Assembly: GCA_021234155.1 (NCBI GenBank)
Contig: JAJEKV010000002.1
Location: 41,653,203-41,717,202, forward strand
DNA length: 64,000 nt
From: Isoetes taiwanensis
Taxonomy: Eukaryota; Streptophyta; Lycopodiopsida; Isoetales; Isoetaceae
Direction of reading: 5' to 3'
Positions 654 to 46,558 of the stretch are shown piece after piece. A program made the translations under genes and the position numbers. Under the pieces are notes generated by a model. The model was given only the letters and a program-made list of their open reading frames with translations, searched no databases and was not told where the DNA came from. The stretch's first letter is position 1, and every line of letters begins with the position of its first letter.

Positions 654-979
654 TGTATTTTCCTGATAGAGGTATTATATTCCAATTTCCCTCCAAAGTG
701 GTGATTAGAGTCGATCCTATGAATTTGAGCATCTCTACTTTGGATATTGGCATTTTAAATGATAATTTTGGCATTTGTGAGGAAACCAGGAAGGAAGACT
801 CGGAGGATGACTTTGACTTCCAGGTCAGTAGCAAGACTTCCACTCTGGAGGATGAGGCCTGGTCAACAGTCATCAATAGAAGGAAAAGAGGGAAGAAAAA
901 CTTCAAAGATTACACTTTGGGACCTCCAAGAAGATCCCCAAGAAAGATCCTCCCCCCATCCAATGGATATAAGTCTTAA
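653..979 (+). CDS. LINE-A second small frame, probable ORF1 C-terminal part
   Basis: A 108-residue frame that starts inside the stop of ORF1 (TAATG) and ends 17 nt beyond the start of the endonuclease frame (ATG at 963). It is acidic in the middle (EETRKEDSEDD) and ends in a basic stretch (NRRKRGKKNFK). No domain is recognised. It may be the C-terminal half of ORF1 split by a mutation, or a genuine separate frame reached by termination-reinitiation, which some LINEs use at UAAUG. The first explanation is simpler; the tidy overlaps at both ends keep the second open. Confidence 0.55.
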   Translation: MYFPDRGIIFQFPSKVVIRVDPMNLSISTLDIGILNDNFGICEETRKEDSEDDFDFQVSSKTSTLEDEAWSTVINRRKRGKKNFKDYTLGPPRRSPRKILPPSNGYKS

Positions 980-2030
980 AGGTATCACTTGGAATATCCA
1001 AGGCATCAATTCGAATCTCAAAAGAGGTAGATTAAAGGTTTGCCTGATTTTATTTTCTTTCAAGAGCATAAGATTCATGATGACAATATCAACTCTATAA
1101 TTAGAGATGTTCTACTTGCAAACTTCCAGCATTGGTCTCTCAAAGCTAACAATACTTCTGCAGGCATTACCATAGCTTGGAATAATAGACTCAACCTGGA
1201 TGATATCCAAATGATCAATGATAACAGCAGAAGATGGCAGATTATCCATGGAAAGGCTGGAGAAAAAAGGATTGCCTTCATAAATGTTTATGCTTACTAT
1301 CAGCCACCTGATAGAGTTAGCCTTTCGGATGTCATAAATAGGAGGTAGAGAGAATTCCATATGATGAGTGTATTTTAGCTGGTGACTTTTATATGGTTAC
1401 CCATAGCTATATGAGGAGCACCAAGGCCTTTGACTGACAATGAGTTCTCAAGCTGGAACTCTCTCCTCTATTCTCACCACCTCTCTCTGGCCAGGGTTAT
1501 TCCCCATTCTTATAGTTGGAGTGATCATAGAGATCAGCCAGTTTGCTGTCTCTATGACAGATTTTATCTTAGTGAAACCCTTTGGAGCAACAGCACTAGG
1601 GTAACTAATCTCACCAACTACACTCTCTCTGACCATTTTCCCCAGCTTATAAGTATATGTGGTAACAATCCTCAGAGGAAGAGGAATTTTTATTTTAAGC
1701 TGAACACTAATCTTCTTGAGCAGGATGACTTTTTGCATAACCTTCAGCAGATTATTTCTCAAGAGGATAAACCTATTGGTAACAGAGGATGGATGGATTG
1801 GTGGGTAAAGGTTTCCAAAAGAATCAAGAATTGGCTCAAGGTCTGGGGAAAAGAAGTCCATAGAAGCAACATTGCCCATTTATAGGACCTTAGATCCTAG
1901 TTAGGTCTGGCTCAGGGACAGCAAAAAGATGACATCAAAACTCAAATAGAAAGAGAGGAAATTAGAATTGCCAGCGGTTGGAAGATCAAGGCGAAGGTAA
2001 AGGAGCTAAAGGAAGATGAAAGGAGCAACT
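963..2030 (+). pseudogene. LINE-A ORF2 5' part: APE endonuclease
   Basis: The frame opens at ATG 963 with MDISLKGITWNIQGIN, the conserved N-terminal strand and asparagine of APE-type LINE endonucleases. It continues after a frameshift near 1035 with FFQEHKIHDDN (catalytic glutamate motif). A further break lies at about 1348-1430, where a GDF motif survives in another frame. The C-terminal part reads through SWSDHRDQP and YTLSDHFPQLI, the SDH motif with the catalytic histidine. The domain nicks target DNA to prime reverse transcription. The reading runs on to 2030, where the large DNA element interrupts it within the linker to the RT. Confidence 0.85.
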
Positions 2031-2049
2031 AAGCATGAATTCATTAATT
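2031..2049 (+). repeat. Left terminal inverted repeat of the DUF7869 element
   Basis: AAGCATGAATTCATTAATT. It matches the reverse complement of 12494-12512 at 18 of 19 bases. It is preceded by AACT (2027-2030), the target duplication. Confidence 0.9.
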
Positions 2050-2378
2050 AGAGAAATTTGGAATTCTCGTTTAGCATGAAATAGGTTAGCGGGTAGCCAT
2101 ATAGTGCAAAAACTACTACCAATTGAGTAAAAGTTGGCGTTTTTTTGCACAAATTCTGCAAAGGCTTCGGTCTTATTCGGAAATATAGTTTTTACTGCTA
2201 ATGCAAAGGTTCACTGCGAGTATAACGTAGTAGGAGGGAGTGTTAAAACTTCTACCATAAAGCCTTGAACGCGATGTTTAGCGGTGAAAAGGAGACAAAA
2301 TAATGTGCCTTTTATTAAAACCATATGAGAGCATTGTGTTAAAAGAAGGTACAGAGGAGCAAGGATATCACACAAAAT

Positions 2379-5300
2379 TCAGTATTTAAAGCCATATAAT
2401 TGCTTTCTGAGGAGGATCGCGATTATGATTATTTTTAGCATTAAACATATGGTAAAAGATATGGGTAAAGACAAAACCAAAGTTCCCGAAACAAAATTTC
2501 CATTGAAGGAAGTAATATACAACATAATTCTTGATTGAAGGAGATAATTATTCGATTGTGTTTGAGATACTTCATCGGGTATCACACCCATTTCATTGGC
2601 CATCACGATTGACATGCTCTCTACCCAATTCCATAGCTTGTGTTGTGTCCATCTCTGAATAACACGTGATCTGGGAACTACAACACCCATGGCCTTTGCG
2701 ATCTTGGCTGCAGATGTGAATCGGACTCCCATTCTTCATTTACCTGCTCCCCGCCTATAAGTTCGTTTTCGCGGTAGCTCCGTCACGATAGCATTACAAC
2801 GTGGATGAGAGAGCTTACGCTTCTTGTTGTGTACCTGATGCTCACGTGACCCAAGAACCTCATCTTGGTCAATCTCCATGTCTTTGCTTGATGCGCTTCC
2901 ATGTGTTCTCATGCGTATTCAAACTGATGTTCACTGTCAAGAAAGGCATGTACCCATCAAGCTTCTCATTAAGTGCACTCAATTTTTTTGAAAAGTGGGC
3001 TCTAGGGCTTCTATACCTTTTTCCGTCTCTTCAAGCAAGCGCTTTGTTTCTTGCATTCTCTCTTAAGTAGGACTTAGCATCGAGGTTTTCCAAAATGGAA
3101 TCCAACTTTGATAGATCGTGTTTTGGGTGATCTTGCGATGTCGGGTTGAGCTGGATCGGGCTCAACCCTCTACCTTTCGGCTCTTCCTCAAACCCATCGG
3201 CACTTGGATTGGCCATTTTATCAAAGCGTTTCAAAGAACGCCCTCGGGAAGCGGCACACTTTACCTGAACTTTGAAAAGCCGCTCTTTTTGCCTTGCATA
3301 AGAGCAACACGAGCGAAATCCCGGTAGAAAAAAAATCGAACACAACCATCGGTCGGCACCGGTTGTTCAACAATATGGTAGGCATAGGAGGTTTTCAGTG
3401 GCATTTCAATACAAGATCTCCTTCCATTGCCGCCCATTTGAATCTTGGTTTGCCTGTAAAAGAGTCGATATTTCTTTTTATCTTCTCGTCGGCATCCTCA
3501 TTACACATTAGCGGCATTGGAGGCAATGGTGTTGACTTAGGAGCCTTGCCGGTGTGGAGATAGGTGAAGCTCAACTCACGGTTGCCGGTGTTACCACGAA
3601 CATCACTCTGTTAATGCACATATGACTAATAAAATGCTTGATGTTCTTTCACCCTTCGTTTGCTCTCCCATCCCGTTTCTTCATAGGAACCTAAAGATAG
3701 GTAGCCACCGCTGAATTTGCTTCATTTGTACAAACAAGCAATTTGGCAAATTCAGCGGCGCATGATAATAACCAAGTGATAAACTTTGGCAATCGTCATG
3801 GTAGCTATCCTTGTAAATAGATCGTGTATTTCTTGCAATCCCATACCTTGTTCATCCCTCGGATGTCAATAAATATCAATGTCGCATTCTCGACACTTGG
3901 GAGGAAGTAGGGATGCCATCCTTTGTCCTTTGCTATGACAATATTTTTCTTTTCCTTTCTTTTTCTAGCCTCTTACGGCTTTAGAATATTCTGATTGGCT
4001 CGAGAAAGGCTACGGTGTAGGTTACCTAGTGTATGATCCTTGTTATAATTAGCCTTGGCGTACTACGTATGGGTTGTCGATATATCCGATTATTCTCTGT
4101 TCGGTCAAATCGGGAAAAGCTTTGAAAGCAATTCCTCCCGACTATCGAAATCCTTTTGCGATAAATTTGTGGCATAAGAAAAATTTTCGCCTCATAAAAG
4201 TGAGGGTTACGATGTCGGTTGCCCGTTGTTTGCAATCAAATCTCCGCTATAACTTTTGCACCTTTAAATCGTCTTGCCTTCTATAATCTCATCGGCGGTT
4301 TGTGACACCTCGCATTTCGACATACCTCGTAACAACGGGCCGGGTCTTGTTAAAGAAGTCTTTGGATGGCTTGTCCAGGAAACTCACCATGGTTAGATCA
4401 CTGAGTTTCTGACTCACCCACCAGACCGACAACTTCCATTAACTTCTTGAAAACCTTTTCATCCATAAAATGAATTGTTTTCATCCTTAAGCTCCTGCAC
4501 TTTCAAGGTGGTCGTTGCAATTTCATGGAAATCCTGAAGCAATTTCAAGGTCATCAAGATCGCGGACGCGAACTTGGCGATAGAAAACAAATAAATACCT
4601 TCAAAGCTGAAGTTTTAGCTGTCCCTATAGGTCCTTGTGGAGGGCAACCATAAGCCTTGTCTTTGATGGCGAAGTTGTTCTGATTTTTCAATCGGTGGCT
4701 CTCTGTACGGTGTTTTGCAATTACTTCGTTGCATTGAATACTCAACTCTATATATTCCTTGTGCGTAAGATTTCCGTTGAGCACCCTCGATCGTCTTCTA
4801 GCATATACTTTGGCAAATTCTCGTTCTTTGCTTTCGAACTTCGTAGACGACCAGAACAAAGGAGTTGTCTGGCGCAAATCGTGGTTGCCGAAATAATATA
4901 AAATTTCTTGCCCTTCAAATCTTACGGATTGCTCCATGTCACCCTCTTCACGAAAAGATAGACAACCGTCGGGTCAAATCTACATAACGAGTGTCAAAAG
5001 ATAAAGAATTAGTTACACAGTAATAGGGTCAAAGCGGAACGGCGTCGGCGGGGGTGAGGACCTCTGTCGGGTATGTCTTGAAGCTTTTAACGAGTTTGAA
5101 CATGGTCATTTGACCGCGTTACGTGTCAAGTTTGCTGGTGCGGGTTCACAATCAAAAATAGAAATCTTTGTAAACCAATTAACCCCTAAGGGGTAGAACC
5201 TTTTAACCTGTTCAAGCTTACGGTGGTTTGCTCTCTGCCATCTTGCGTTCCTCTTGAGGGATTGAACTTCAACTTCATTTGGAATGGCGGTCGCGTGGTG

Positions 5301-6310
5301 CCATGGCAATGCTAGTCTAGAGGAAGCATCCAAATGGCGAGGGGGTTTGTGAACTGGCGGGCTGCGGGCTATCTTGATGGGTGTCCAGTTCACGAGGCTA
5401 ATTTTGAAAGGAGGGAACTTTTTGGAATAAATCCACCGGATGTAGTGCTATCACGGGGCCTTCATAACAATAGGAAGAGTAGGGTTAACAATCCGGGAGG
5501 GGTTTATAGTGGATTGTGGTTCTTGAGCAATTTCTTTTTTGAGTGCTGATGTCTCTCCCAAAGCGACAATAGGCTTCACACTCTTTTTCTTGGCCCGCGG
5601 CTCTTAGCCAATTAGTGTCCATCACGGAGGGCATCTTCTCGTCGAACTGCTTTCAAGGCACATTTCGGAGGCTTCTTGTCGTAGACAAACCATTTACGCA
5701 TCTCTGCCGAACCCGAGCAATATGTCTCTGTTTCCCTTTATACGACAAAGAGAGAGATCATAGGATGGCAACAACCAGCCCATAACCCTTAGGCGGCGTG
5801 GGGGCGTTTTTCCACAATGGTGGCTTGTTCATTTTCTTTGGTTGTCATCATAGGCGGGTCATAATTGCGCCATTTCAAAATGTACTCGAAACTGCAATGC
5901 TTGTGTGTCCTCAATCTTGCATATGATAGCATCTTGCACATTGTTCTTAAGTGCCTTCCCACATTGCCACCACTATGCCAACTTGTTCAACGTCCTCGGC
6001 TTTTTTTTTCGTCCAGCGAAAGCGAGCCTGAGGTCCTTTCTGCGGTCACCCTTAATGTCGCGGTATAGCACATTGCAATCTCAATACACCATTTCCTTTC
6101 ATTGGAAGGGGTTATATCTGGTTTGGCTCGACATCGGTCCTCGGAAGAGAGCAAGTCTTTGTAAACAAAAGCACATGGTGAGTGCACGGTAGGCTGCATA
6201 ATGTGGTGCAAGGAAAAGGTAGAAACTCTTGTAGAAAAGCGCGGCCGCGATCTGCCGAAGCGACTAAAATAGAACTCCACACTATCAGCGGCCGCGCGGC
6301 GTTGTAACAC
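2379..6310 (-). pseudogene. Unassigned decayed coding region in the DUF7869 element
   Basis: Open stretches on the minus strand follow one another with small frame changes: 6310-5987, 5393-5106, 4937-4554, 4235-4026, 3345-3031 and 2732-2379. The composition is protein-like (charged, helix-forming, few low-complexity runs). The 3345-3031 piece is rich in K/R and E/D and includes KRFDKMANPSADGFEEEPK. The last piece has a possible helix-turn-helix (SAAKIAKAMGVVVPRSRVIQ). I do not recognise a family. It is divergent from the DUF7869 gene and could be an accessory transposition gene or captured host sequence. Introns and frameshifts cannot be told apart by eye. Confidence 0.4.
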
Positions 6311-6641
6311 TTAAGCACGGCAAGAAAACATCGCGATTCGCGAACCTAATGGCGTACTACACTGGTACTCATGAAACATATAAAGAAAGAAAATCTATAC
6401 TCAGCCAGACCGCGGCCGCGATCTTGTTGAGCAGCTACACTTATGAAGACCGCTGTCTAGAAATTACAAAACCTATCAAGCAAGACCGCGGCCGCGATCT
6501 TGTTGAGCAGCTACACTTATGAAGAACGCGGCTGTCTAGAAATTACAAAACCTATCAAACAAGACCAGCGTCACGATCTTCTTTGGCGATATACTTATGA
6601 AAACAATAGAAGCTCGAGTAGGCAAGATCGCGGCCGCGATC
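6239..6641. repeat. Array around the palindrome GATCGCGGCCGCGATC
   Basis: The perfect 16-bp palindrome is at 6626-6641. Close variants are at 6408-6423 and 6484-6499 (GACCGCGGCCGCGATC), a partial one at 6239-6252 and a decayed one at 6563-6578. The copies at 6408, 6484 and 6563 lie in repeats of about 76-79 bp that share a following TTGTTGAGCAGCTACACTTATGAAGA block. The array sits between the minus strand coding region and the + strand gene, where shared control or transposase-binding sites would be expected. It is CpG-dense. Confidence 0.75.
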
Positions 6642-8889
6642 TTGCTGAGCTGAAATGTTAGAAAATACCTTCTTTGAGGGAGTCCTTAGGTGCCATGGGA
6701 TCGCGGTATTTGGCTGAGTTAATCTGAGTCTTTTGGAGTGGCTCGAGAAGGCTCGGGCGAAAAGCTAAGCATTTGAGCAATCGCTGGAGTCGAAATTTGT
6801 TTTAAAGGTTTGAAGTTTCAATTTATAGAACGCGGCGCGGAAATTAATTGCCCGCCCCTCATAATTCTTGCGTGAAAAAAGCGTGCGGCCATAATGGCGT
6901 CGTCAGCGGCCGTGATAATAATTACCGCGGCCCGGCGGCCGTATTTATTCCACGACATAAATGCGGTCGTCGAATATACCCGTCCGAAAAAGGCAAGTAA
7001 TCCGTAGGAAAGGTCCTTATCCACTTGGGCGTCCAGCGTTCAAATTCGGTAATTTGGGACTGACACATTATGCGACCATAAATGCCCCAAAAAATCCGGT
7101 TCTGGACCCGGACGATGGCCCCGTAGAATTTGAAATCGAGAACAAACCAATTCGAAAAAGGGGAAAAGCCAATTCAAATTTCATTGTTTTGCAAGATCTT
7201 GGTATTTGGAGCTGCGCCTAAAATTTGGAACCAAGTTCGGGCAAGGATTTCTTTTTGAAATTCGCATCCATTGAAAGCGGCCCGGGCGATAATCCGCTTG
7301 CAATCCGCCACTACACATTGAGTTCTGCAACTGCATCGAATTCGGGGTTTGGGCGAGGTAAAAGGCCTATTCGATGCATATCCCTCAGCGAAGTGAACTC
7401 AACGTCTATGTTGCCTTTGAATTTTAATTATAACTACAACCTCAGAGTCTACGCACTAACATCACTATGTATTGCATGGATTGATAAGATACCTCGATAC
7501 TTTGTTGCAACTATGTAAAATAGATGTTCTAAGCAAAGCGTGCACTCTGGTGTGTTTATTATACAATGTAAACGTGTTTGGTATATGCTTTCTTTCTCCA
7601 TGTGGATGAAACTAAACAACGTTTTTTATGACAACTGCTGCTTACGGGGTACAAGTTGGCGTTGGCGGGCTACAAGTTGGCGTTGGCGCCACCGGCTACA
7701 AGTTGGCGTTGGCGCCACCGTGATACGTGAGGTATGAGTAATGCTTTATTACGTAAGTCGGTCGTTATAACTTTGGTGCTCCGCGAGATCGCGATCGCGA
7801 TACCTTCAACCGTCTACACTTGCTATTGACCAATGAACTCCCAGCTATCGACAACTTTGAGTTGAAACCACTAGCTAGCCTCGAAATGTGATTTGCACGA
7901 GTTCTTATCGAAACAGCTAGTGTGAATGCTTGCAAAAAAAGCGGCCAGCGTTCTTACCCATGCTTTCGATAAGATCGCGGTGGCGATAGTCCCGAGCATT
8001 TTTATTTTTCAGTTCCTATTTTTGTAGTGGTTTGTGATCCGCGGTGCTTTACGCTTCGAGGAGGATGGCGGCGCTATTCCGCGACCTCTTGTTTGCGGGG
8101 ATGGCTGATGTAATTCCATTTGTATCTGGCTGGGGAAAAAAGGTGGCGAAGGAAGAGTCCACAATTTGGCGCCATCACAATTCGGCCCGGGTCGGAGGGT
8201 ATGGTTGTCGTTTCAATTGTGAATGTTCTGGATGGATAGTTACCGCTACCAATTCCCGAAATGGAAATAGAAAAAATGGGTGAAGCTGTGGGGACTTTTG
8301 TGTTGTGGTACAAGAAGGACATTGCTGCTCAACTTGATAGAGATGAGGAAACATGCACCCCACCGGTCGGATAAAGCGCATAGGCTGGCGGGGCCGAGAG
8401 GGAATGAGGGTTAGCCGATGTGGGGCGAATCATGTGCAAGGGCTTTCTAGAGATGAGTTAGTTGAGAAAGCGTGCACACTCATGCATGAATCTTTGCTAC
8501 ATGGCTTATGCCTATGGTGTTATCGTTTTTGCCGATCAAACCATCTTTGTGTCGGCGTGAAGTTAGGGGAAGGCTCGATAGTTTGCTACTATCATGAACA
8601 TTTTTCAATGCACGAAAAAAAGATCTCTATCTTGTTGCCGGGCACGTGCGAAAATGCTAGCGCATGACCTTGTGAGATGGCCCATAGCCCTCGTGCTCAT
8701 TGATAACATTCCGGTTTCTACTCTTGTGGTTGCGGTGAAGGAGAAGGATGTGGAGAATGAACCTTACTCCATTAGACCCGAAATTGGCATCACCAAAAAG
8801 AGACCTTCTGACATGGTCAATCGGAGACCCGAGAACACGCCCGGCCACCAGAGTAAATGTGAAAGAAAAAACTAGTCTTGAGGCTATTC
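6642..8889 (+). other. Interior of the DUF7869 element, no assigned gene
   Basis: GC-richer than the flanking LINE. Short open frames exist (6961-7221, 7225-7518, 8044-8283, 8353-8667, 8594-8875) but none matches a family I know. A stretch at 8275-8350 reads GEAVGTFVLWYKKDIAAQL and looks protein-like. Part of this may be the N-terminal region or introns of the DUF7869 gene that follows. Confidence 0.35.
7650..7720 (+). repeat. Short minisatellite, unit about 21-26 bp
   Basis: Three tandem copies of CTACAAGTTGGCGTTGGCG, the last two extended by CCACCG. A related AAAAGTTGGCG piece occurs near the left end of the same element at about 2133. Confidence 0.8.
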
Positions 8890-11220
8890 TAGACTTCAGT
8901 CATCAACTGTCTTTGCATGAAGCGATCTTTGTGCAAATTTTACATCCCGGAGATAGCTTGCATGAGAACCTTTTCTTGGAACATGAAGTCCTCGGGCGCT
9001 AACTTTTGCATATAACATGCTAGATCTTTGCTCACGAAAATGGTGTAGTCCATAAATTGATGTTGAATAACAAGCGGTGTGTCGTGAAAGCATGGCATAA
9101 AGCCTATGGCATTCCCATTTCCACTTTTTACAAGTGGAAGAAGCTCTTCAATGATGGCCCGCAATTGCTTTGAGCCGCGAAAATCTTGGGTCTAAGAAGC
9201 CAAGGTCTCATACTTTGGTGGCAATCTTTGTGCTATCTATGTTCATAGATGAAAAGCGAGAGATGATGCCACACCGCTCGAAAATTACGGCGAGGGTAGC
9301 GAACAAAATGTTAAGAGGCTACCTTACGTCTTGACTAAGAAGGATATACACCAAGAAGAGATATTTCCGTTCTGAGAGATGACGAGGCAAAGCATATTTC
9401 TCCTTAAGTCATTTAAATGCGCTTGGAAAGAGAATCATTCGAGGTATCAATAGCTAAGAGGATAGCATTTTCCAAGTGTAACACCTGTATTGTCATAAAG
9501 GAAAAGCTTGCTAAGACCAGAGATCCAAACGAAAAGAAGGGTACTTGCAATAGAGAGGAAATCGCATATGACGGCCCCCGGATTTCTTGCGGGGGAGCCT
9601 TTCTTGGTCTGGAGAGCTTTGTCGCATAGATCTCTGAGCACGCTTTAACCATTATACATGATAAGATGGATCAGAATAAGACCATGGTCCCTCGTCTAGA
9701 GAAGCTAGCAAAGTCGTATGGAGGGGTGAGCGGTGAAGGTTAGTGTTACAGTGCTCTCATGCACGGCCATGGTATAGGTGCCTTGGGCCACTTCTCCTTT
9801 GGACCTCTGGCACGATGATTCTAATTTTCATGTGGGATCCTTGAATCATACCTTGAAGACACCGGAGAATAAATCGAGGATAATTGGGGCCATTTGAGAG
9901 ATCTTGATCGTCTGGCGGTAGGGGTGCGGCAATTTTAAACACTGATAACCTCGGGACAAAAATGATGAATGGCGGTAGAAATGATTTTATGCCTCCTATC
10001 AAAGGCCCCATGGTAGCAAACAAGTTGCCTAGGAGGCTTTACTTGCAGACTAGATAATTGCTTTCGGTCGAATAAGAATAGATATCTTTTCTCTTACTTG
10101 TCATACTTGGTTTGGTTAGGTGTATTTGATCAAGTGCAGCGGTGGGATTCATGATGGTTGGACACACCCACGATGACATAGATGCCCTATTTGGAAACTA
10201 CTCTACTCTAATGAGAAGATCAGATGCATTGACTATTCGAGCTTATGCAACTCTTGGCGGTGTAGTTCAAAGGCTCCTTCGCCTTACCTTGTGAGAGGGT
10301 TCTGATTGGAAGGAATTAGTGAAAGGTTTTATCCCCGATAAGAAGGACCGTTTATGTGGTCACTTGGAACCTCTACTCTTCAAGTTTTGCATGAAGGATG
10401 GATGGCCACTAATGTTCTACAAGATGAGGCGGGGGCATGAGGAGTGGCTCCACGAAAAGGGAATCGAGAATGTGGAAGGAGGATGCCCAAGGTTTACCTA
10501 TGATTCCGAGAGGGTCACCTAAGGTCCTGCAGACCATATGGGAGCTTGAAAGATATAGGTGCATTAAGAGCTTCTATTGCCAAGTACATGATGCCTTGGG
10601 CAGCTATTTCTAGAGTGGCGATAAGTCATGGTCCAACACATATATGAATGAAGTTATTGACTCTTGGTCCACCTTGTTCTGCGAGTGCTTGGCGGCGTGC
10701 AGCCCCGGTGAAACTCTCATTCAGATTTCGGCCCACCACCGGGCAAAGTGCATTGGAAGAACCGAAAAAGAGTGTTTGTGGATGAGCACATTGAAGCATC
10801 TCATTACGTTGGGCCTTTCTCGGGTAGACCCAAGAACCCGGTTGAAATATTGACCCCTACCAAGATGTCAAGAAGGGAATGCTCTTGCTAATCGGACCAC
10901 ATGATAACGCCCCGCATGGATGGGTTTTGCGAAGAGGACCCAATAGAGGACCCTAATCTCCCACATTACGAAGAGGTGTTTGTCTCTTGGTTTGAACCTA
11001 TTGCGAAAAGGGAACCTCATATGCAATGCGGTATAGGGATTCTTTGGAGCAAGAATTGGAGACCCAATCCTAATGACCCGCCGCTACCAACCTTTGAAAA
11101 CAATAGACTATGGTTGGGCCGTAGAGACCAGGCCATTGTCGGTGGTGATCCCCAGTAGTGTTAGGGGCTCGGTTGCAAGAATTAGTGGCTAAAGAAGCTA
11201 AGGGCGATGATGAGAACTCT
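8890..11220 (+). pseudogene. DUF7869-type protein gene, decayed
   Basis: Successive frames give a recognisable run of DUF7869-family landmarks. They are: a helix-rich DNA-binding-like segment near 9040-9165 (VKAWHKAYGIPISTFYKWKK); CPHRSK-like context and a cysteine pair FSKCNTC at about 9467-9487; HDKMDQNKTMVPRLEKLAKS at 9657-9716; LWHDDSNFHVGS at about 9805-9838; LDNCFRSNKNRYLFSYLSYL from 10050; VGFMMVGHTHDDIDALFG from 10142; and GHLEPLLFKF then DGWPLMFYK at 10357-10425. The order and spacing fit family proteins of land plants and other eukaryotes. The conserved D-N-x-x-R-x-N-K-N and GHTH-D-D-I-D blocks suggest a metal-dependent nuclease-like core, which is inference. At least six frame changes or stops disrupt it. 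Function in the family is, to my knowledge, not established; its position inside a TIR element argues for a transposase. Confidence 0.78.
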
Positions 11221-11358
11221 TGAGGTATGCAATGCTCTTTTACATAATTACTATATCATTCATAACATGAAAGTTACAATAGACTAGTTATTATTTGTTA
11301 CGCTGCGTTTTCCATCTCAACACAAGAGCTCTTACACTATACAATGCTAAGCAATGAT

Positions 11359-11598
11359 TCATTCATCTTCGGGATCTGTAGTAGTGATCCCCGATATCTC
11401 ATAGCTCATTAAAAACGGGAAGCCAAATCGATGGATCATTACACGAATTGACGAGAACCAACGAATCTCAGCCCCAAAGCTTTTCTTCGCGGTAGGGATC
11501 AAGAAGAAGATGCACATCTAGGCAACCAACAAGATCGAGTGGCTCATTGAGCACTTGATCGCCTCGATGTGGTGAATTGATGAAGGCAAATAATCCAT
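11359..11598 (-). pseudogene. Small gene A, paralogue of small gene B
   Basis: An 80-codon frame from ATG at 11598 to TGA at 11359, with one in-frame TAG after about 26 codons. The N-terminal part contains HHIEAIKCSMSHSI; the end reads MSYEISGITTTDPEDE. Both parts align with small gene B, and the shared promoter lies about 35 nt upstream. No known family is recognised. It sits close to the right TIR of the large element, on the strand opposite to the DUF7869 gene. Confidence 0.5.
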
Positions 11599-11630
11599 GG
11601 GAGAGGAATGAACTTTAGCCCCGTGAGAAG

Positions 11631-11669
11631 CTTTTATAGTGAGGTAGAATTATTGAGGTGAATTATTGG
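11631..11669 (-). promoter_or_regulatory. TATA promoter of small gene A
   Basis: On the minus strand a CCAATAATTCAC block is followed by CTCACTATAAAAGC. The TATA box lies 33-41 nt before the ATG at 11598. The same layout is kept before small gene B (12306-12267). Confidence 0.6.
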
Positions 11670-11938
11670 GGTAGACTTGGCCATTATTATTGCTCGTGTG
11701 TATAAGACCGTTGTATAAATACAAGTATAATACATCTTTAAGTATGGATATATGTATGCGTACTAATATCGTATGTTTCAAAACATGTTTGCTTGACCAA
11801 TTTAGCTATGATTGAATTCAATGACGGCTTTGCGAGAATAAGTGGAGGTGGGATAGCACATCGTTACAATATACTCGGTTAAGGTGCGTGATATTACATC
11901 CTTAATCGGAATGCTATTACATCCTTACTTAGTTATTA

Positions 11939-12232
11939 GGTACCCATGTCATTATTACATTATTAGCAGTGCTTGATTCACTTTCGTCATCAACATCAAA
12001 GCTCGTGATGCCATTCAGCTCATAGATCTCTCGATCGGGAAGCCATAAATATGGACTTTAACGCGAGTGAGCTTCCTGCAAGCACTAGCAGGTCCATCAG
12101 CTTTAGATAAGAGCCATGGATCAAGCTTAACGCTATTTCTAGCGCATTCGCCCAGATCGGATTCGCCCAGTTGTAGCTCAAGTAACACTTGAAAGAGCGG
12201 ATGTGCTCTGGACGAGGCATCGAGGAAGCCAT
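11939..12232 (-). pseudogene. Small gene B, paralogue of small gene A
   Basis: The open frame from ATG 12232 runs 70 codons to 12020 (starts MASSMPRPEHIRSFKCYLSY). The likely continuation in another frame reads IYELNGITSFDVDDESES and stops at 11939, matching the end of small gene A. This implies one frameshift near 12040. The segment IRSFKCYLSYNW corresponds to IEAIKCSMSHSI of gene A. No family is recognised. The A/B pair with its promoters forms a diverged tandem duplication of roughly 600 bp. Confidence 0.5.
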
Positions 12233-12266
12233 GGAAGATGAATGGCCTCTACCCCCTCGTGAAGCC

Positions 12267-12306
12267 GTTTTTATAGTGAAGTAAAATTATTGATGTGAAT
12301 TATTGG
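12267..12306 (-). promoter_or_regulatory. TATA promoter of small gene B
   Basis: Minus strand CCAATAATTCACATCAATAA followed by CTTCACTATAAAAAC, about 35-45 nt before the ATG at 12232. It is collinear with the promoter of small gene A. Confidence 0.6.
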
Positions 12307-12493
12307 CGTACAATGTAGGGCCATTATTGAGCTTATACGAGTGTCATGTACACGTACAAGTATAACACAAAATTTGTATGTATATGTGTATGTTAATTAC
12401 CTTATGTTTGTTGGGGTCGAGTACTAGGTGAAAGTATTCGTGCTTGAGCAAATAAGGTGTGCTCAAAATTCTCAAAATTGCGTTATTTTATCC

Positions 12494-12512
12494 AATTAAT
12501 GAAATCATGCTT
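12494..12512 (-). repeat. Right terminal inverted repeat of the DUF7869 element
   Basis: AATTAATGAAATCATGCTT, followed by the AACT target duplication at 12513-12516 and then the LINE reading. Confidence 0.9.
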
Positions 12513-12516
12513 AACT

Positions 12517-14383
12517 CAAAGTATTTTTTCATCAAGGCTAAGGGCAAAGTAAAGAGAAATCACATTTACAGTATTCTTTGGGATGGCAATAATATTGATA
12601 ATGACGCACAGCTTAAGTGTGCTGCCAAAACTCATTTCTCCAGGATTATGGGAACTGAGGAGAATATTAGAAGGGAAGACATTGAAAATTTTGTGTATAT
12701 CCAACAGAGAGTGACTGAGCATATGAATGACAGATTATCCAGACCTTTTACTTATGATGAAATGCTGAAGGTTCTTCAGGAGATGGAGAATGGTAAGACT
12801 CCAGGTCCTGATGGTCTCCCAGCTGAGTTCTTCAAGAAATCTTGGGAAATTCTAGGTAAGGATATTGTCTCCCTGGCTAATGAGTTCCTGATTACTAAGC
12901 AGCTGGATTGCAGGATTAATACAAGTTTAATTGCCCTTATCCCGAAGATTGAGCTCCCAATTACCTTCTCTGACTATAGACCTATATCTCTGACCAATGT
13001 GGTTTATAAGTTAATTACAGGTACCATTCAAACCTATCCTAGAGGAAGTTATCAGTAACACTCAAAGTGCCTACCTGAGAGGAAGGTATATTCTAGATAA
13101 TGTTGTTGCTGCATCTTTAGGTATCTCCTGGGCCAAAGACTCTAATCAGTCAATTGGCCTCCTCAAATTGGACATCACGAAGGCATTTGATACAGTAAGT
13201 TGGGCTTTTTTATTTTGGTGTTGTAAGAAACTTGGATTCTCTGACAATGTAATCTCAGTGTTCCAAGCTATTCTTAATAATTCTAGATTTGCTGTTCTTA
13301 TCAATGGTGAATGTAGTCCTTTTTTTGATATTAAAAGGGGGGTCAAGCAAGGCTGCCCCCTTGCTCCTTTCCTTTTCTTGATTGTGATGGAAGGATTAAA
13401 CAGCAACTTCAAGTGAGCAAAGGATCTTCATTTAATCAAGGGTCTCAGTCTTCCCTCTCAGGAGGAAAACGAGACTCTTAATGTCCACTTTGCAGATGAT
13501 ACCTTCTTATTTCTTCATTTGGAAGATCAATCCATTCAGAACACTCAAGCTATTTTGGAAGATTTTGGTAAGTGCTCGGGATGCAAAATCAATCCTATCA
13601 AGACCAAGTTAATCTCAAGACATCAAGTGGAGCGTGAGCATGCAGCTGCAAGCTTGGGATGTATGTATCTCTCCCCTAATACTAAAACGAAAATTCTAGG
13701 CATCCCTTATGCTATTAGGGTTAATGCTTGTGAGCTCTGGGAAGACTTAATTGATAAATTCTACAAAAAGGTTGACTCCCTCAACTCCAAATTCCTTTCA
13801 AAAAATGGGAGAGCCATTCTGGCAAACTCGGTTATTTCTTCTTCTCAGGTATACCAGTCCTCTATCATTATGGCCCCTAAAAAGGTTTTGGTTAAAATGC
13901 AAGGCATTATTGGTAGGTTCATAGCAGGTGGATCTAGTAGGAAATGCTGGATTCCTATCTCTATGGAGGAATGCTGCAAACATAAAAGGATGGGAGGTCT
14001 GGGAGTCATCAACATTGAGAAGCAGACCACTGCTTTGGCTGCAAAATACTTCTTCAGGGCCTGCAACAACCAGATTAACCACCCTGTGAGTACTCTCATT
14101 TCCCATTATATTAAAAAGTGCCACCCCTTTGGTTGGAGAAATCTTAAAATGCAGCTGCCTCATAGCATCTACTTTGATTTCACCATTCCTACCACCATGC
14201 CTTTGATTATCAAGAAATGGATTAGAGCATGGTTAAAGGTTAAGGGTATGTACACTTGGAAAGAAGGACTTTCACAGGATCAGCCTATTTTTTGGAGTCC
14301 CTCTCTTATTCTGGATGACCCCAACACATGTCTCGCCACTAATTTCCCTAAGTTAGCCAAGCAATGGACTAACAGTGGAATTA
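12517..14383 (+). pseudogene. LINE-A ORF2 reverse transcriptase
   Basis: Resumes the LINE protein directly after the DNA element. RT landmarks are in order: GKTPGPDGLPAEFFKKSW, LIPKIELPITFSDYRPISLT, LKLDITKAFDTVSW, GVKQGCPLAPFLFLIVMEGL, VHFADDTFLFLHLEDQ (catalytic A-D-D), TKTKILGIPYAIR and NGRAILANSVISSSQVYQSS. A frameshift lies near 13025 and a stop at 13414-13416, so the enzyme is inactive. From 13519 the frame stays open for 310 codons until it is cut by the Helitron at 14383 just after NSGI. Confidence 0.93.
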
Positions 14384-15465
14384 TCCTTTATTATAAAGTT
14401 TTAGTGTATGTCATGCATAAAACCCTAAAACTTTCGACGGTCCAGATTTGATGAAATCAATGGAAGAGATGACGCCACATAAGATTCTAGGGTTTTTTTT
14501 TGCTAGGGTTAGCGAGGGCACCTTCGAGCTAGGGCGGCAGTAGCACCTTTGAGCTGCTAGCTCCTCCTCCAGTAAGCAAAGCACGTATCTATAGATGCAA
14601 CAGCGTAAGAAAGAAAGAAGAAGCAGAGCCGCTTCCGGCTATGGCGGCATTCAGAAGAAACAAGAAGCTCTCTGGTCCGTGCTGGGTTCTCGGCTGCGAA
14701 GAATGGTGGATCACTTCTTATTTCTCTGATCTAAGTCATGGTGATCATCTGCAATGCTGCATTTCGGCCTCCTCCAGCACTGGAATCATGGCAGAGAAAT
14801 CCGAACAGGGGATCTGGCCTTGCATTTTATAATTTCTGACTTGGGCATTTCCTTGCTGGTTGGGCTCCGAGCCCTGTTGTGCCGGATCGTATGCATCCGT
14901 TCGTTTCCTAGGCATGCCAGAAATTCTGGCATGGCAAGCTGCATGTTTCGCCCTGTTTGCATGAGGTTATGCTGTGTATTAATAGAGTAGCCATTCCGGC
15001 GGAGCCCATTTTCATTTTACTTCTTCTTTTTCAGATTGGGTAGCTGTTGTTCTATTTCAGGAGGAGCTATTTGTGAAGAGCCATTCCGGTGGAGCCCATT
15101 TCCAGTGAGTATCTCCATCCCTTCTATTGCAGAGGATAGGGTCCCAATGATCGGCCCATTTTTCTGCCAGTTCTTCATTTCTTTTTTCAAGACCTCTATG
15201 CATTGTGGCTACTACACAGATCAGCTACTGCCACAAAAATCGATATTCTCATATGCCATTGATTGAAATCTGTAGCAAAATCCAAACATGTTGCATTAAC
15301 AACAGGCCATAGGCCATGCTCCAGTACGTAATGTAGGTTTCCAGTCTGCACAACCCTATTGCAAGCATATATAGTTCATTTAATTATTACTACAGTCTAT
15401 TAAATTTCAAGTTAGTGATATTTGGATGGTCTTTTACACCGCAAACATTGTTGAGCAATGTGATT

Positions 15466-15799
15466 GCAAGCACCACTTAATGAAAATGCCATTATTTCTT
15501 TTTGTTTTGCTCATTGTTACGGATCTTCTAAGTATTGTTGTTGCTGGAAGTCAGATTGAAGTGTTTGATCCTGTATTTTATCACAGGGATTAAATGCTGT
15601 GGAATCCTCCTATCATATTCTTCATCTTAGAATTTGATGTAGATGTATTGTGTAAGAATACGAGGCCCGGCAAGCACTACTTAATGAAAATGCCGTTATT
15701 TCTTTCTGCTTTGCTCATTGTTACAGATTTTCTAAGTACTGTTGTTGCTGGAAGTCATGCTGAAGTGTTTGATCCTGTATTTTACCACAGGGATTAAAT
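15466..15799 (+). repeat. 130-bp tandem duplication inside Helitron-1
   Basis: 15466-15595 and 15670-15799 are copies with a 204-bp offset. Both run from GCAAGCAC.ACTTAATGAAAATGCC to CACAGGGATTAAAT and differ at several bases. In the second copy a frame reads LIVTDFLSTVVAGSHAEVF. Confidence 0.85.
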
Positions 15800-16430
15800 A
15801 GTATTGGGAGACAGTTGTATGAATAGGCTAGGGTATAAGATTGCTGAAGTTTATGTTACAATAATGATAACTGAAGCCGCATCTGTAATATATTCCTTGA
15901 AGGCCATTTGGATGGATTCTCTGGCCTTTGTTAAAGTTGCCAAACAAGCACATCTACAAATTTTTTCTAAGGGAGCAGCTTTTTTTTCTAAGGGCGCAGC
16001 CGGCCACCCTTATGAGACCATGTATCACATCAGTGGAGCAAAGACAACAAAATGATAACAGGAGCGATCTATACCGGTATTGTGCTTTAAGTTTTCCTTC
16101 TGAATGAAAAGCTAAACCGGAGGCCTATCTGAGGGCCTATATATGAATTCATTTGTAAGGCATGCAATTTGCTCAACCTCCTGAACTGCCTAGGTGTTGT
16201 CTGAGGTAGGCAAGTTGTTATGCTCTTACGCACACAGAATTGGTAGGATGTATTGTGGAAGCTTTTGGAAATTAAATAGCTTTTTGCGAAAGGTAGGAAA
16301 AAGTAACAATTTTTTATATCATCTGTTTTATTAGCTAGAGTTAAATAATGCAATTAGAAGTAACTGGTGTTTAGATGATTTCTTTCTTTCAGGCTACCAT
16401 AGTCTCTAGAAGCAGTTTAAACTGTTGCAA

Positions 16431-16559
16431 ATGTCGACATCGAGGTCTGCTAGGAGACCATCATCATTGTCAATTCCATTGGCGGATCTAGGAGACTCCG
16501 TTGAGAAGAGCAGTGTAAACCCCAAAAAAATTGTTGTCATCAATGTTGGGGCCTATTGA
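16431..16559 (+). other. Exon-like captured gene piece in Helitron-1
   Basis: A 42-codon frame, MSTSRSARRPSSLSIPLADL and on to KKIVVINVGAY, opens shortly after a TTTCTTTCAG acceptor-like site at 16392. The Ser/Arg-rich start resembles the N-terminus of a plant protein, but I cannot name it. The piece may end at a lost splice donor instead of at the TGA. Confidence 0.35.
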
Positions 16560-17687
16560 TAAAGCATCTGATTGTTTGGCTTTAGTATCTCTACTGATAT
16601 TTCAAGTCAGATATTTTATTGGGGTGCAACTTCAAACCTTGATATGTTTTACATACATTTTAAAGTTAATACATATGTAATCTATTATCAACGTTGCAAG
16701 CACCATCAGCATGTTGGCATGATATGCATATGTAAGTAGCCTGTCAAGCACCTCAGGCACACTCAACAAAGATGTCCTCTACTTGAATTGGGAGGTGCTA
16801 ATCTCATTTTGGCAATCCGACATTGAGTGTATATTTTTTAAACAGATGTAGCTTTGTGGTTATTGTCAGTGAAGATATGATCGTCTCTATCATGTACATG
16901 ACAATGCATGCCCAACCAGTAGAACTTCATGTTTTCAACCAACCAGCGTCTTTTATATTGGATAACTTTTCTGTAGATATACATGTATTCTGGCACTTGC
17001 TATACTATCTAACATAAAATGATCCACACCATGTCTATGGTTCAATCTTCAGGAATGATTTATAAGATGAGTGGCAGGTAATAATGGGTACAATCATAGC
17101 ATCGACGGTTGGTAATGCATTGGTAAGTTGGTTTGGGAGCGACACGACAGTGCTAATCGACTCCGTTTCTCAAATCCACCCCGTTTATCAAATCCACCAT
17201 ATAGCAATGAATTTATTGAACAACGGCATGCAGCTTTCACATGTGTCTTGCTAACGAACTTAATTGTCAGTTGTTCCTATAAGAAATGTTTGCAAGCCTT
17301 AACGTTAATTATTGGCAGTTCATCATCTAGGGCAGTTCATCATCTAGAAAGCTCTACAATAAAAAGGATGATATGAACGGGTTCATCTATTGTGGCTATT
17401 AAGCAGTATCGTAAATATGATATGATTGGAATGCACATATTATACTCTCACTACAAGTGACAAAGCCCTTAAGAAAATGAAGAAAAATAAAAGGCACTAA
17501 TACTATATAAACTCGAATCGCATCATACTGTTCTGACGGCCACCATGAGGGTTTGTCTTATTTTTAGTGTACATCATAGTGGTTAGGTGGATCAAAAGGC
17601 CGATTTGAATATAGCTTGCCCAGATCTGACGGCCTATCATTTACAGGTTTTGAAACTATGCCCAGCAACGCTGGGCATCGTAACTAG

Positions 17688-18740: not shown

Positions 18741-19119
18741 TCACCTGGCTTATCCTGATATCAGCTGTTATTTTGGAACTGCCAAAAACTTTATGATTTC
18801 TCTGAATTTGGATAGTTTAGTTTTATCAGGGTCACTAACCTACCCTTTCCTAAAGGTTATTTTCTAAAAAGAGCTTTTAATAGCTCCCTATATACTTCTA
18901 CTATACGGATTTAATATATACTTAAGCCTTCAATTAAAAAAAAAAATATAAACCACCTGAATGCACTAAAGGAATTTTCTTACTAACACAAAAAAATACA
19001 TAATTATTCTTGGCATGATAAGATCTCTAACATGTATATATAGGATGAGCACGTGTTCAACACCATATTTTAGGCAGTACACCATTTTAGGTCGTTTGTA
19101 TCTATAGAGGCCCTCCACA
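18741..19119 (+). other. LINE-A 3' UTR, poly(A) and flank
   Basis: No frame of note. The LINE probably ends at the A run 18936-18946. The remaining 173 bp are AT-rich flank in which nothing is seen. Confidence 0.6.
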
Positions 19120-20217
19120 TCTTATCTTATATTATAATGTTATAGCATAAGTATGTAATGGACCAACCCCTAATTTCGTTGGCTAAGATTATGAGATTGC
19201 ATTCAAAGGTCGAGATTTATCGCACGCCTTCCCACCACCATAATTGGTCATGCTTTGATCTCTTAAAGGGAAAGGGAAAGGGAAAGGGAAAAGGGAGGAT
19301 GGAAGGGGAAAAGTGAAAGGCAAAAAAGCACAAAAAAAAGGAGAAGAGGGAAAGGGAAAAAGGGCATGGGAAAAAAGGGAAAAGGGAAAGGGTGAGAAAA
19401 GGGAAAAATGGTATAGAAAAAGGGAAAGAGAGGGAAAATAAAGAGGGGAGGGAGAAAAGAGAAGGGAAAAAAGGAAGAGGAAAAGGGTGGGTAAAGGTGG
19501 AAAAGAGAAGTGAAAAAGGAACGAGGAAAATGGAAAGGGAAATGGGGAAAAGGGAAAAGGCAAGGGAAAAATGGAGGAGGAAAAAAGGGGAGAGGGAAAT
19601 GGGAAGAGAGAAGGGAAAAAAGGCACTGGAAAAATGGGAAGAGAGAAAGGGTGAGGAAAGGGAAAAACAATAAGGAAAAAAGAGCATAGAAAAAGGGAAA
19701 AGAGAAAAGAAAAAGCGAGGGGGGATGGGCACGGGGAAAAGGAAAAGGGGCACACAAAAAAGATGGGAAAAAAGGAACAGAAAAAAGGCATGGAAAGAGA
19801 AAGAGAAATAGAATGGGAAAAGGAGAGGGAAAAAGCGCACGGAAAAAAAGGGAAGAGGGGGAAAGGATAAAAAAGGGAAGGGAAAAAGTCCGTCAAAAAA
19901 GAAGGGGAAGAGAAAAAGAGAAAGGAGAAAGGGGAGGGGAGGGGAAGGGAAGGGATTAAAAAACGAAAAATGGAAAAGGGGGAAAAAGAAAACATGTCGG
20001 GAAAATGAGAAAAGGGAAAAGTAAAAAGGAAGGTGTGTACGAAAGAGAGGAAAAAGGGAAACACAGGAAATAGAGCAAAAAGGCAAAGGGAAGGGGAGCG
20101 GGTGTCAAATGCACAACTGAGCTTGGTTTCTATTATATTAGATTTATAAAAAGGAGTCTAAGTTGAACAGTTTCGTCCACACAACTTATGCCCAGCAACG
20201 TTAGACACCATTACTAG
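19120..20217 (+). mobile_element. Helitron-2, non-autonomous, purine-filled
   Basis: It begins TCTTATCTTATATTATAATG after A (19119) and ends GCCCAGCAACGTTAGAC (decayed hairpin) then CTAG at 20214-20217 before T (20218). The hairpin-to-end distance is 11 nt, as in Helitron-1, and the last 30 nt align with Helitron-1. The first 150 bp match the reverse complement of 33149-33000 (Helitron-3). The middle is a purine tract. No protein is encoded; long open frames on either strand of the tract are low-complexity artefacts. Confidence 0.82.
19267..20095 (+). repeat. GGGAAA-rich purine tract
   Basis: About 830 bp almost wholly of A and G on the + strand, built of variable GGGAAA, GGGAAAA and GAGGGAAA units with rare single T or C bases. 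It lies inside Helitron-2. The complementary type of tract occurs in Helitron-3 (32812-32998). Confidence 0.95.
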
Positions 20218-28692: not shown

Positions 28693-30599
28693 ACAGAATG
28701 TAACGGATGAAATAAAATGAAAATATGCTTCTCTGATTTACCTGAGGATATAGGCGTAAAAGTGCAACACTATGATGCAAATAAGCACTGTCCATTTTTT
28801 AGCACCGACATCCATCATTTTGCATAACACGCTTAGTCCGTGTACACAAAATCATCTTTTAGATAAGAAAACCCTAGAAAACCCTAGAGATGGTTCACGT
28901 TTTGTTTTTCATGAGAAAAGGGCTTTCATTATAAGCCCTTGGATCTTTTTGAATTAACAGAGGGCTTCTTTGTAAGCCGTCTGATCTTAACCATTGAGGA
29001 GGATGAAACAAAAATTGCACAAATTGCATGCAAAAACTTGGTGCACTCTAGATGTACTGATTAGTATGTCTCGTGCAATACACCCATGAAATCATATGAA
29101 AACCATGTAAAACAGCGTATAAAATCACAAAAAAAACCCCCTGTTATAATGCTACATATTCATACTGTATTCAAAATGAATTTTATTAAGTTTGAATATT
29201 TGCTTTGGACCAGGTCAAAAACATATGCATGTTTCTGTTTCACATGCTGCATAAGAAATCCAGAAAAATTTCTCTGAAGCAGTGAAATTAGTAGAGCTAT
29301 CAGACTTCTATTGAGCCTTGGAGGAGATATGAATCGGCCGTGTAAAGCTTTCCAAGATGGCAGTGGAGCCACTTCCGAAAACTGTTCATGGGCTTTGCTA
29401 TGATTTTATTTCAAATGATAGGTTAAAAACATTGTCTAGGTATTCTTATCAAATTAAATAGTTACATTTGTTTTGTGGAGACTTAATAAACCTTGTCTAG
29501 GTATACTCGAAACTGTTTCGATATACTTCAATAAGTTCACCTTTTTTTTTTTTTTTTTTTTTTTTTTCAAATAAGTTCACCTTGTCTAGATAGTCCACGT
29601 TATGTCTTCGAAATTTGCCTTTTGGTTTGGTACTCACATTTAATAAATTCAAATAACGTTAATTTTGTTACATTTGGTGTGTTCGAAATAACACACCTTT
29701 TAAATTTGTATTTTATGGTACCTTTTAATTTGTATTTTATGGTACATCAAAGTTAGATGCCTTGATATAATAATACTTGCCTTATAGAAATTTCGCATTC
29801 GAGCATTATATAAATCCATTAAAAATAAAAAATTATCGCCATCTACATTATGTAAACCTTGCAATGGGTTAAACATATCGCCTTGTAAAAATTTATTAGT
29901 CCTAAAATAATCGCCAATATAAATATAACCAGAAGGCTATACAAGGTCACTAAAATCATCACTGGTGTGGAAGGATACACTTCAAGCATTGGGTACAACG
30001 TAGTTGAAATTGATCATGATTTGCACAAGAAATGTATTGATAACTTGATGTCGTTTAGTGTGTTTGCCCACTAGTCTAGATCATTTCTTGATTCTAGGAA
30101 GCTTAGCTAGTGGTTAACTCGCCATCTTTGAAGAATGACCTAAGCTCACACGTTCAACGACTTGTGTAAGGTTGGTGAAGAAGGACCTACTTCAGCCATA
30201 ATGGGGGCAGGACGCATCTAGGTGTGTTGTAGATTATCCCATAATTTACGACTTTCCACGAATTAAAATTATCCTATGCCCCCTTTATATATACACTTGG
30301 GAAAGCATATGTACATATATTGCTTGCCATATTTTTGCCATATTTCTATAACCCATTTGCCGTGGACCACTTCCCTGTGCTTGCTCCATATCAATCCATC
30401 CCTTCTCAAGATAGATCATCTGTAATCATCCAAGATACGCTCCTTTTCAATCCATCCCTTCTCGAGATGGATCACCCGCGACCATTGATAACCTGAAAGT
30501 TTCACAATCCCGTACAATCCGACAACACTGTTATAGATATCCGTGTACTTCTAAAGTACGTTATTGTCTTTTGTATCTCCAAGGTACAACTTGATGGTA
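28693..30599. other. Unassigned AT-rich DNA with a poly(T) insertion
   Basis: No supported gene. It contains the poly(T) insertion at 29530-29581, three CCTTGTCTAG(G/A)TA words (29433, 29494, 29580) and a near-duplicate of about 60 bp with the shared core CAATCCATCCCTTCTC at roughly 30391 and 30459. Confidence 0.5.
29530..29581 (-). repeat. Poly(A)-only retro-insertion with target duplication
   Basis: AATAAGTTCACC at 29530-29541 is repeated at 29570-29581. Between them are 26 T followed by CA, that is TG then 26 A on the minus strand. This is the expected footprint of LINE-driven target-primed reverse transcription that copied only a tail. Confidence 0.75.
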
Positions 30600-30961
30600 T
30601 CACCACGATCCTTTGATAATTTTTAAAAAGAACTCGATGTTATTCTTCTCATTCTTCAAAAAGCTGAAAGAATCATCAACATATTGCATTATAGTTAATT
30701 GAGTCATATTATCAGGAAGCCTTAAACCTCAATATTTTCAACCTGCTGGTGATGCTGAATTACTCTTGTTAGCATTTCAGCAACAATTATAAAAAGGTAA
30801 GGGGCTAAGGGGCAACCCTGTCTAACTCCATTGTTCAATGAGAAGAATCTGCTTGGAGAGCCATTGATTATAATCGAAGACTGAGATCTTAAGTTAAGGC
30901 CCATGATCGAGGAATAAAGGAAAGATATGCCCATCCAAGAGCTCTCGATGCCCAGAGTCAC
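30600..30961 (-). mobile_element. LINE RT fragment
   Basis: Minus strand frame 30961-30722 contains NNGVRQGCPLAPYLFIIVAE, the conserved RT block before the active site. It is followed in another frame by MQYVDDSFSFLKNEKNN, the Y/F-x-D-D box. Both flanks of the RT are absent. L1-like. Confidence 0.8.
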
Positions 30962-31363
30962 CCCACGTGTGAATATGCACCTAAACCAACAGATGCGCTC
31001 AACGCACTCAAATTCGACATTGATGCATGTTGAGCATGATCTAAAGAATTCTTGAAGCTCTTGTGTACTCCTCAGTTGGATTTATAGAGATTTGACTAAA
31101 AAAACACGTTCTTATATTATTTTATGTACCTTGAATGATCTTATGATGTCTTTGGAGGACTGATTACCTTCTACATAACCCTATTATGATTTGTATTACC
31201 TTCTCTTCAATGAAAATTGCCTACCAAGTTTTCCAAACCATCTCTAATATGATTTCTATTGTTTTGCCACTTCAAAAAATTCGACAGTAAAATATCCTTG
31301 TTCCAAATCCCTTTTTGACTAGTTGACATCTGTCCTTGCATCCATTAGCACCTGTGGGTCAAA

Positions 31364-31364
<1 letters not shown>
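30962..31364. other. Unassigned AT-rich DNA
   Basis: No frame or repeat of note apart from the GTGTGAATATGCACC block shared with 26680. Confidence 0.5.

Positions 31365-31440
<76 letters not shown>
31365..31440 (+). repeat. (TAA)23 microsatellite and A run
   Basis: Uninterrupted TAA units 31365-31433, then A to 31440. It directly precedes a LINE 3' fragment. Confidence 0.97.
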
Positions 31441-45950: not shown

Positions 45951-46558
45951 TGTTAGGATCTTTAAGCAAATGTCTAGCTATCAAATACTTTTAGATGCAA
46001 TACAATATTTAAATGTCTTAAAACAACATTAGAACCTTAGATAAAATAATCTTAGACAATGGATTGTATTGCACTAACTTAACCCCGAGAACTTGGGCAT
46101 TCACCTTTATTGATGAATCCGGCAGACTTACAATTACTATGCTATATAGGCTTCTGATTATACATCTTGTTTTATAGGATTCGGCACCAATCCTTTCGGA
46201 ATCGGCACCGAAAAGGCTCGACCGCTTCGCTTCATGCTAATTTGAAAGTTCGATCTTGTCAATCTGTTATTCGACCGAAATATCCCATATTTCTCAACCA
46301 TTGAACTTATGGTTTATAAAGCTTAAGGGTTCGACTATTAAAACTTAAATATCCAAGTAATATGGTTAACCTTTGATTTTTCTGCTTAGGTTAAGTTAAG
46401 AACTATAGCAATACCCTAGTGCCCTCTGTACAGATTCTGATGACTGCACATTATCTTTGATATATAGACCATTTGCTCTGATAAGCTTTCTGGCATCACT
46501 CCATGATATAGGTTCTCGGATCATGTAACCATATTATAATATGAACTAAACTTCAACA
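45951..46558 (-). repeat. Copia-2 3' LTR
   Basis: 608 bp, starting TGTTAGGATC and ending CTTCAACA on the + strand. Confidence 0.95.

Follow-up and report, generated by a model that had tools for sequence, protein, structure and literature searches.

A precisely bounded transposon of Isoetes taiwanensis carries a decayed DUF7869 gene, a candidate transposase of its family

A 64,000-nucleotide stretch of the genome of Isoetes taiwanensis (assembly GCA_021234155.1, contig JAJEKV010000002.1, forward-strand positions 41,653,203 to 41,717,202; hereafter the window) contains a transposon with terminal inverted repeats (TIRs) at window positions 2031–12512 (plus strand; 10,482 bp), inserted into a long interspersed nuclear element (LINE). 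The element is real and its boundaries are exact, as seen in the TIRs, the target site duplication (TSD), the restored reading frame of the LINE and a shift in CpG content. It is filed here as a TIR transposon. Inside lies one gene of the DUF7869 family (Pfam PF25273), whose Pfam description gives no function. Judged from sequence, the element likely belongs to a cut-and-paste family as a non-autonomous copy that is now dead; full-length members of the family would encode the DUF7869 protein as their transposase. This reading is favored because the TIRs and TSD are exact, DUF7869 is the sole Pfam family above its cut-off in the element, three acidic blocks are kept among DUF7869 proteins, and in one relative (locus L005) the gene is flanked by arrays of a repeated motif.

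The two ends of the element can be placed to the base. The left TIR (2031–2049, plus strand; AAGCATGAATTCATTAATT) and the right TIR (12494–12512, minus strand; AAGCATGATTTCATTAATT) are each 19 bp long and agree at 18 of 19 positions, and similarity between the ends drops off shortly inward. The ends of the element read AAGCATG. The 4-bp TSD, AACT, is found at 2027–2030, where it is based on the sequence and on the join of the empty site, and at 12513–12516, where it is based on that join. When the flanks are joined with one AACT kept, a 223-codon open frame that reads as a LINE protein runs across the site. Assignment to a LINE draws on an RVT_1 match downstream of the element (E = 4.3e-6), which at 27 bits is just under the Pfam cut-off of 29.6; a zf-RVT match occurs at 17.7 kb, in a frame that we take to belong to the same LINE. 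An earlier note on this DNA had claimed base-exact ends from 19-bp TIRs, an AACT duplication and an interrupted LINE, and all three are borne out.

Matches to the TIR with up to three mismatches occur only twice in the window (0.09 expected), and both are the ends of the element. A scan for bounded pairs (inverted 19-mers agreeing at 18 or more positions, the inner 10 bases exact, 1–20 kb apart, flanked by identical 4-mers) found nothing in 20 shuffled windows but picked up two pairs in the real one: the element itself and, at 29543–32808, a poly-T/poly-A artefact. No DNA resembling the element was found elsewhere within the window. The ratio of observed to expected CpG is 0.65–1.36 inside the element (six bins), drops to 0.09 and 0.14 in the two flanking LINE parts and stands at 0.32–0.61 in the rest of the window (five bins). 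A ratio of about 1 over much of the element against 0.09–0.14 in the LINE is an unusually sharp step for so broken an element. The LINE itself is seemingly interrupted once more (14400–17683): its reading ends at about 14.4 kb and the zf-RVT frame begins at 17.68 kb. This insert holds two 130-bp direct repeats, 92% alike and 204 bp apart (starting at 15466 and 15670), and comparison of its two end regions revealed no repeat.

The DUF7869 gene lies on the plus strand at about 8.74–11.16 kb and fills under a quarter of the element. Pieced together from several frames with stops written as X, the gene matches PF25273 at 108.2 bits (E = 5.1e-31), covering model positions 17–188 of 192 against a curated cut-off of 26 bits. 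Since piecing across frames could bias the outcome, whole frames with nothing joined were scanned as well, and DUF7869 is matched independently in two plus frames out of three, at 43.3 bits (E = 3.9e-11) in one and at 26 bits, right at the cut-off (E = 8.1e-6), in the other. In these scans of all six frames, no family besides DUF7869 appeared at E ≤ 1. A scan of nine pieces gave HTH_23 (E = 0.0081), HTH_28 (E = 0.13) and YBR230W-A (E = 0.068), all under their own cut-offs. The search of the translated region with a hidden Markov model, proposed in the earlier note, was thus positive for PF25273.

Four parts of the gene can be told apart. The N-terminal part (8739–9170, plus strand) contains a stretch resembling a helix-turn-helix (HTH), to which the weak, sub-threshold HTH_23 match belongs, and two in-frame stops. 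The middle part (9182–9894, plus strand) is spread over three frames and includes a C-x-x-C motif, HDKMD and LWHDDSN; the protein of L005 matches it by tblastn at E = 7e-4, 0.001 and 4.0. The core (10050–10519, plus strand) holds LDNCFRSNKN and GHTHDDID, separated by a frame change, has a stop at 10292, and is matched by PF25273 in two frames and by tblastn at E = 1e-15. The C-terminal part (10464–11155, plus strand) shows several frame changes and is covered by tblastn up to 10532, and farther only by eye. All five landmarks that had been named for the family were found, in family order: by hand count, HDKMDQNKT at 9657–9683, LWHDDSN at 9805–9825, LDNCFRSNKN at 10050–10079, MVGHTHDDID at 10154–10183 and DGWPLMFYK at 10397–10423. 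These five motifs are distributed over three different frames.

The gene is more heavily damaged than the LINE around it. Reading the gene along an eye-chosen path gives about 19 breaks over 2.4 kb, 8 of them stops and 11 of them frame changes, whereas LINE ORF2 (about 963 to 14451, minus the element) shows 7 breaks over about 3.0 kb: 3 stops (1883, 1898 and 13414) and 4 changes of frame. When only the tblastn hits at 9182–10532 are counted, there are three frame changes (four counting the hit with E = 4.0) and three stops, with two more stops in a stretch taken as out of frame. The contrast in break density between gene and LINE is therefore about 3.4-fold by the eye path or about 2-fold by the tblastn hits only, both from small numbers. 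Introns are not the cause of most of the frame switches because most neighboring coding blocks abut, and the gaps at 9895–9973 and 10701–10741 could conceal one. The LINE was there before the element landed in it, and from then on the two have decayed side by side. The excess damage in the gene should therefore date from before the insertion, which would mean that the copy moved in trans by an enzyme made elsewhere. The DUF7869 copy was thus probably dead on arrival. With the gene likely dead at insertion, one copy cannot prove that DUF7869 moves the element. The earlier note had taken the presence of the gene in a bounded element to suggest that DUF7869 proteins are transposases; the element, its ends and the gene are real, and the transposase role is still the most economical one, but the co-occurrence carries less weight with a gene that was likely broken beforehand.

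Relatives of the DUF7869 protein were sought with a DNA-pattern scan for GHTH[DE]D[IVM]D-x-[FLIMV]-F in a prokaryote genome collection of 84,980 species. This returned two stretches, both coding for DUF7869 relatives. L005 (CADCWO010000071.1) is filed under a cyanobacterium, as a metagenome-assembled genome (MAG), and encodes an intact 947-aa DUF7869 open reading frame (ORF). L006 (CANJPX010000132.1), a MAG contig filed under Bacteroidetes, has a DUF7869 ORF that is broken or intron-bearing and lies near the contig end. Among genomes sampled from the two phyla, the PF25273 model matched 1 of 386 and 1 of 395, in both cases the L005 and L006 contigs themselves, and 0 of 14 controls. Because no other sampled genome of either phylum and none of the controls matches, both contigs are probably eukaryotic contamination of MAG assemblies. 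By tblastn, the L005 protein gives collinear hits (residues 260–710) in the window at 9182–10532, with a best E of 1e-15, and among 38 collected loci it matches only L005 and L006. When genome G002 was searched with both L005 flanks, only L005 itself and one flank's own repeats were returned, with no further copy. Plasmids and phages yielded no tblastn match to the L005 protein, and two protein-pattern searches of viral contigs yielded no DUF7869 relative. Four DNA-motif scans of viral contigs gave 4, 2, 23 and 0 stretches. The first six inspected were rejected as three long GHTHDDVD frames (taken as antisense), a metallophosphoesterase-like ORF (by eye) and unrelated ORFs, and the 23 stretches of the third scan were set aside for want of a match to the L005 protein by tblastn, the sole test applied to them.

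The three distant proteins that were aligned (L005, L006 and the window copy) keep acidic residues in the blocks [HS]D[KG]MD, [LMI]D[NG] and GHTH[DE]DID. The blocks begin at residues 419, 545 and 580 of the L005 protein, in which the second D of HDKMD is 122 residues from the D of LDN, and the Ds of GHTHDDID are 39–42 residues farther. The resulting layout (D-122-D-about 40-D), from its spacing and conservation, would suit a DDE/D transposase. The earlier note had also singled out D-N-x-x-R-x-N-K-N as a possible catalytic part. As a whole this block is not conserved: the equivalent segment reads DNCFRSNKN in the window, DNAVGDNKN in L005 and DGGSENAN in L006, so that the first D and an N-x-N, offset by a one-residue gap, are what survives.

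In L005, the 7-mer AGCTAAA/TTTAGCT has five copies in the 889 bp on one side of the ORF, five in the 594 bp on the other and none within the 2,844-bp ORF itself, and none of 200 dinucleotide shuffles gives any 7-mer five times on both sides. Longer versions of the motif build a 27-nt palindrome at 4191–4217. These flanking arrays resemble transposase-binding sites and may be a hint of mobility. Subterminal repeats that are bound by the transposase and have such a layout are a feature of CACTA and Ac elements. The window element also contains repeated and palindromic motifs: a cluster of CAAGATCGCGGCCGCGATCTTG-type repeats at 6403–6671 includes a perfect 24-nt palindrome at 6622–6645 (GCAAGATCGCGGCCGCGATCTTGC), partial copies of which lie mainly at 6.2–8.0 kb, upstream of the DUF7869 gene. 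The longest perfect palindromes have 26 paired nucleotides in L005 and 24 in the window element, and each exceeds those of all 100 shuffles. GATCGCG, a word picked after looking, has 12 copies inside the element, whereas 200 shuffles average 0.84 and never exceed 4. For unpicked words, the most frequent 7-mer, 8-mer and 10-mer of the element have 12, 8 and 6 copies, counts equaled or exceeded in 3, 2 and 0 shuffles out of 100, respectively.

Taken as a mechanism, the transposase made by an intact relative would bind the 19-bp ends and perhaps also the repeated internal sites, excise the element and join it to a 4-bp staggered cut in the LINE, after which repair of the gaps would leave AACT on both sides. 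DUF7869 would be that transposase, with a DDE/D-type site built from a D of HDKMD, the D of LDN and a D of GHTHDDID, and its HTH-like N-terminal part may serve in DNA binding.

Several observations weigh against the transposase role. Only one bounded element was seen, and its DUF7869 gene was probably broken before insertion, so that it is likely not the mover of this copy. L005 has no recognizable TIR or TSD, and its contig may stop inside the element; its array signal is weaker for 6-mers, where 5 of 200 shuffles reach it. Unlike L005, the window element has, apart from its TIRs, no motif enriched at both ends (ends of 500, 800, 1200 and 2000 bp; words of 6, 7 and 8; 100 shuffles each), and part of its internal motif copies come from one tandem repeat of 76 bp. 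No other family in Pfam, NCBIfam or PHROG scored above cut-off, and three sequence searches against solved structures brought up nothing useful: one match at E = 0.25 in the first, no match in the second and one at E = 0.56 in the third. Two AlphaFold models, from alignments of four and six rows, were unusable (mean pLDDT 38.6 and 41.6). A fold search with the better, still low-confidence model returned 323 hits with E ≤ 10, none better than 0.71 and all at noise level; the 50 of these that were listed are mostly methyltransferases with some actin-related chains, and include no transposase, integrase or RNase H. As a search with an unusable model, it is counted neither for nor against.

The gene could instead be a passenger, either captured by the TIR element or belonging to an older element nested in it, with another transposase doing the moving. 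The gene was likely broken before insertion, as cargo would be, and it takes up less than a quarter of a long element (10.5 kb). The real transposase might also be sought on the minus strand at 2379–6310, where the ORF list shows open pieces of up to 139 aa that may be a broken second gene. This stretch has no Pfam match in three whole minus frames at E ≤ 1, apart from one piece with a sub-threshold match (E = 0.068), and over most of its length no clear three-base periodicity, although that test is equally blank over most of the DUF7869 gene. Capture is unlikely, however, in that no other transposase family is detectable in six frames, fossils of an element's own transposase are the usual case, and a single capture event would leave unexplained why the DUF7869 gene of L005 is flanked by its own motif arrays. 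It is still less probable that DUF7869 is a host or accessory protein that takes no part in moving the element, for instance a regulator that binds DNA or a nuclease from some other pathway. Such a role gains from the fact that transposase activity is inferred and the fold models are unusable. Against it stand the three conserved acidic blocks and the HTH-like N-terminal part, both fitting a transposase, and the settings of the gene, which is enclosed by a bounded mobile element in the window and flanked by repeat arrays in L005.

If DUF7869 is the transposase, it may belong to a superfamily that is already cataloged, most likely Sola; this is a matter of classification, is compatible with the transposase role, and we consider it somewhat favored. 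Sola elements have 4-bp duplications, a DDD transposase, TIRs of 11–1124 bp and lengths of mostly 2–9 kb with some above 15 kb (PMC10741241); they are listed in Physcomitrella and Capsicum (PMC9033089), reported from the ferns Azolla and Salvinia (PMC6786969), and placed by a survey within the RNase H-like superfamily (PMC3985635). The window element resembles Sola in its 4-bp AACT duplication, a TIR length within the range, a size of about 10 kb, a candidate DDD-type enzyme and its occurrence in a land plant, as Sola is present in moss, Capsicum and ferns. On the other side, Sola is reportedly uncommon in flowering plants (PMC10741241). Duplications of 4 bp are moreover not unique to Sola, since Ginger and Chapaev have them too.

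CACTA (En/Spm) elements have CACTA/G termini and 3-bp duplications. The window element is like them in being a plant TIR element of several kilobases with repeated internal motifs that are possibly bound by a transposase. It differs in its AAGCATG ends, its 4-bp duplication and the lack of a Transposase_21 match in six frames, and membership in CACTA was rejected on ends, duplication length and domain. A further, rather doubtful idea is that DUF7869 constitutes a separate superfamily of eukaryotic transposases, present in a plant-like host and at least two other eukaryotic-looking sources, with 4-bp TSDs and partly palindromic motif arrays as binding sites. The literature search, from which most subscription journals were outside the scope, found no paper naming DUF7869, PF25273 or a corresponding InterPro number.

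Other features of the window lie apart from the element. A probable Copia element occupies 45951–51452, with repeats at 45951–46365 and 51035–51452; minus-strand frames between them contain Copia gag domains and, by eye, integrase and polymerase. It looks young because its repeats are 98–99% alike. At 19190–20160, a purine-rich repeat of the GGGAAA type produces strong strand asymmetry (GC skew 0.61 and AT skew 0.57 at 19001–20000) and leaves long open frames on the opposite strand, which are not evidence for a gene. No RNA family reached its gathering score in the window.

Compared with the DUF7869 entry in Pfam at large, the present copy stands out by sitting in an exactly bounded mobile element, and the exact ends and target duplication give a handle for finding an active member. 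If DUF7869 is a transposase, genome masking should treat the genes of this unnamed family as mobile elements, and the conserved acidic blocks become testable active-site residues. If the family is Sola, a Pfam entry without a function would be linked to a known superfamily of plant transposons. Were it instead a superfamily of its own, many DUF7869 genes of no known function would be mobile elements.

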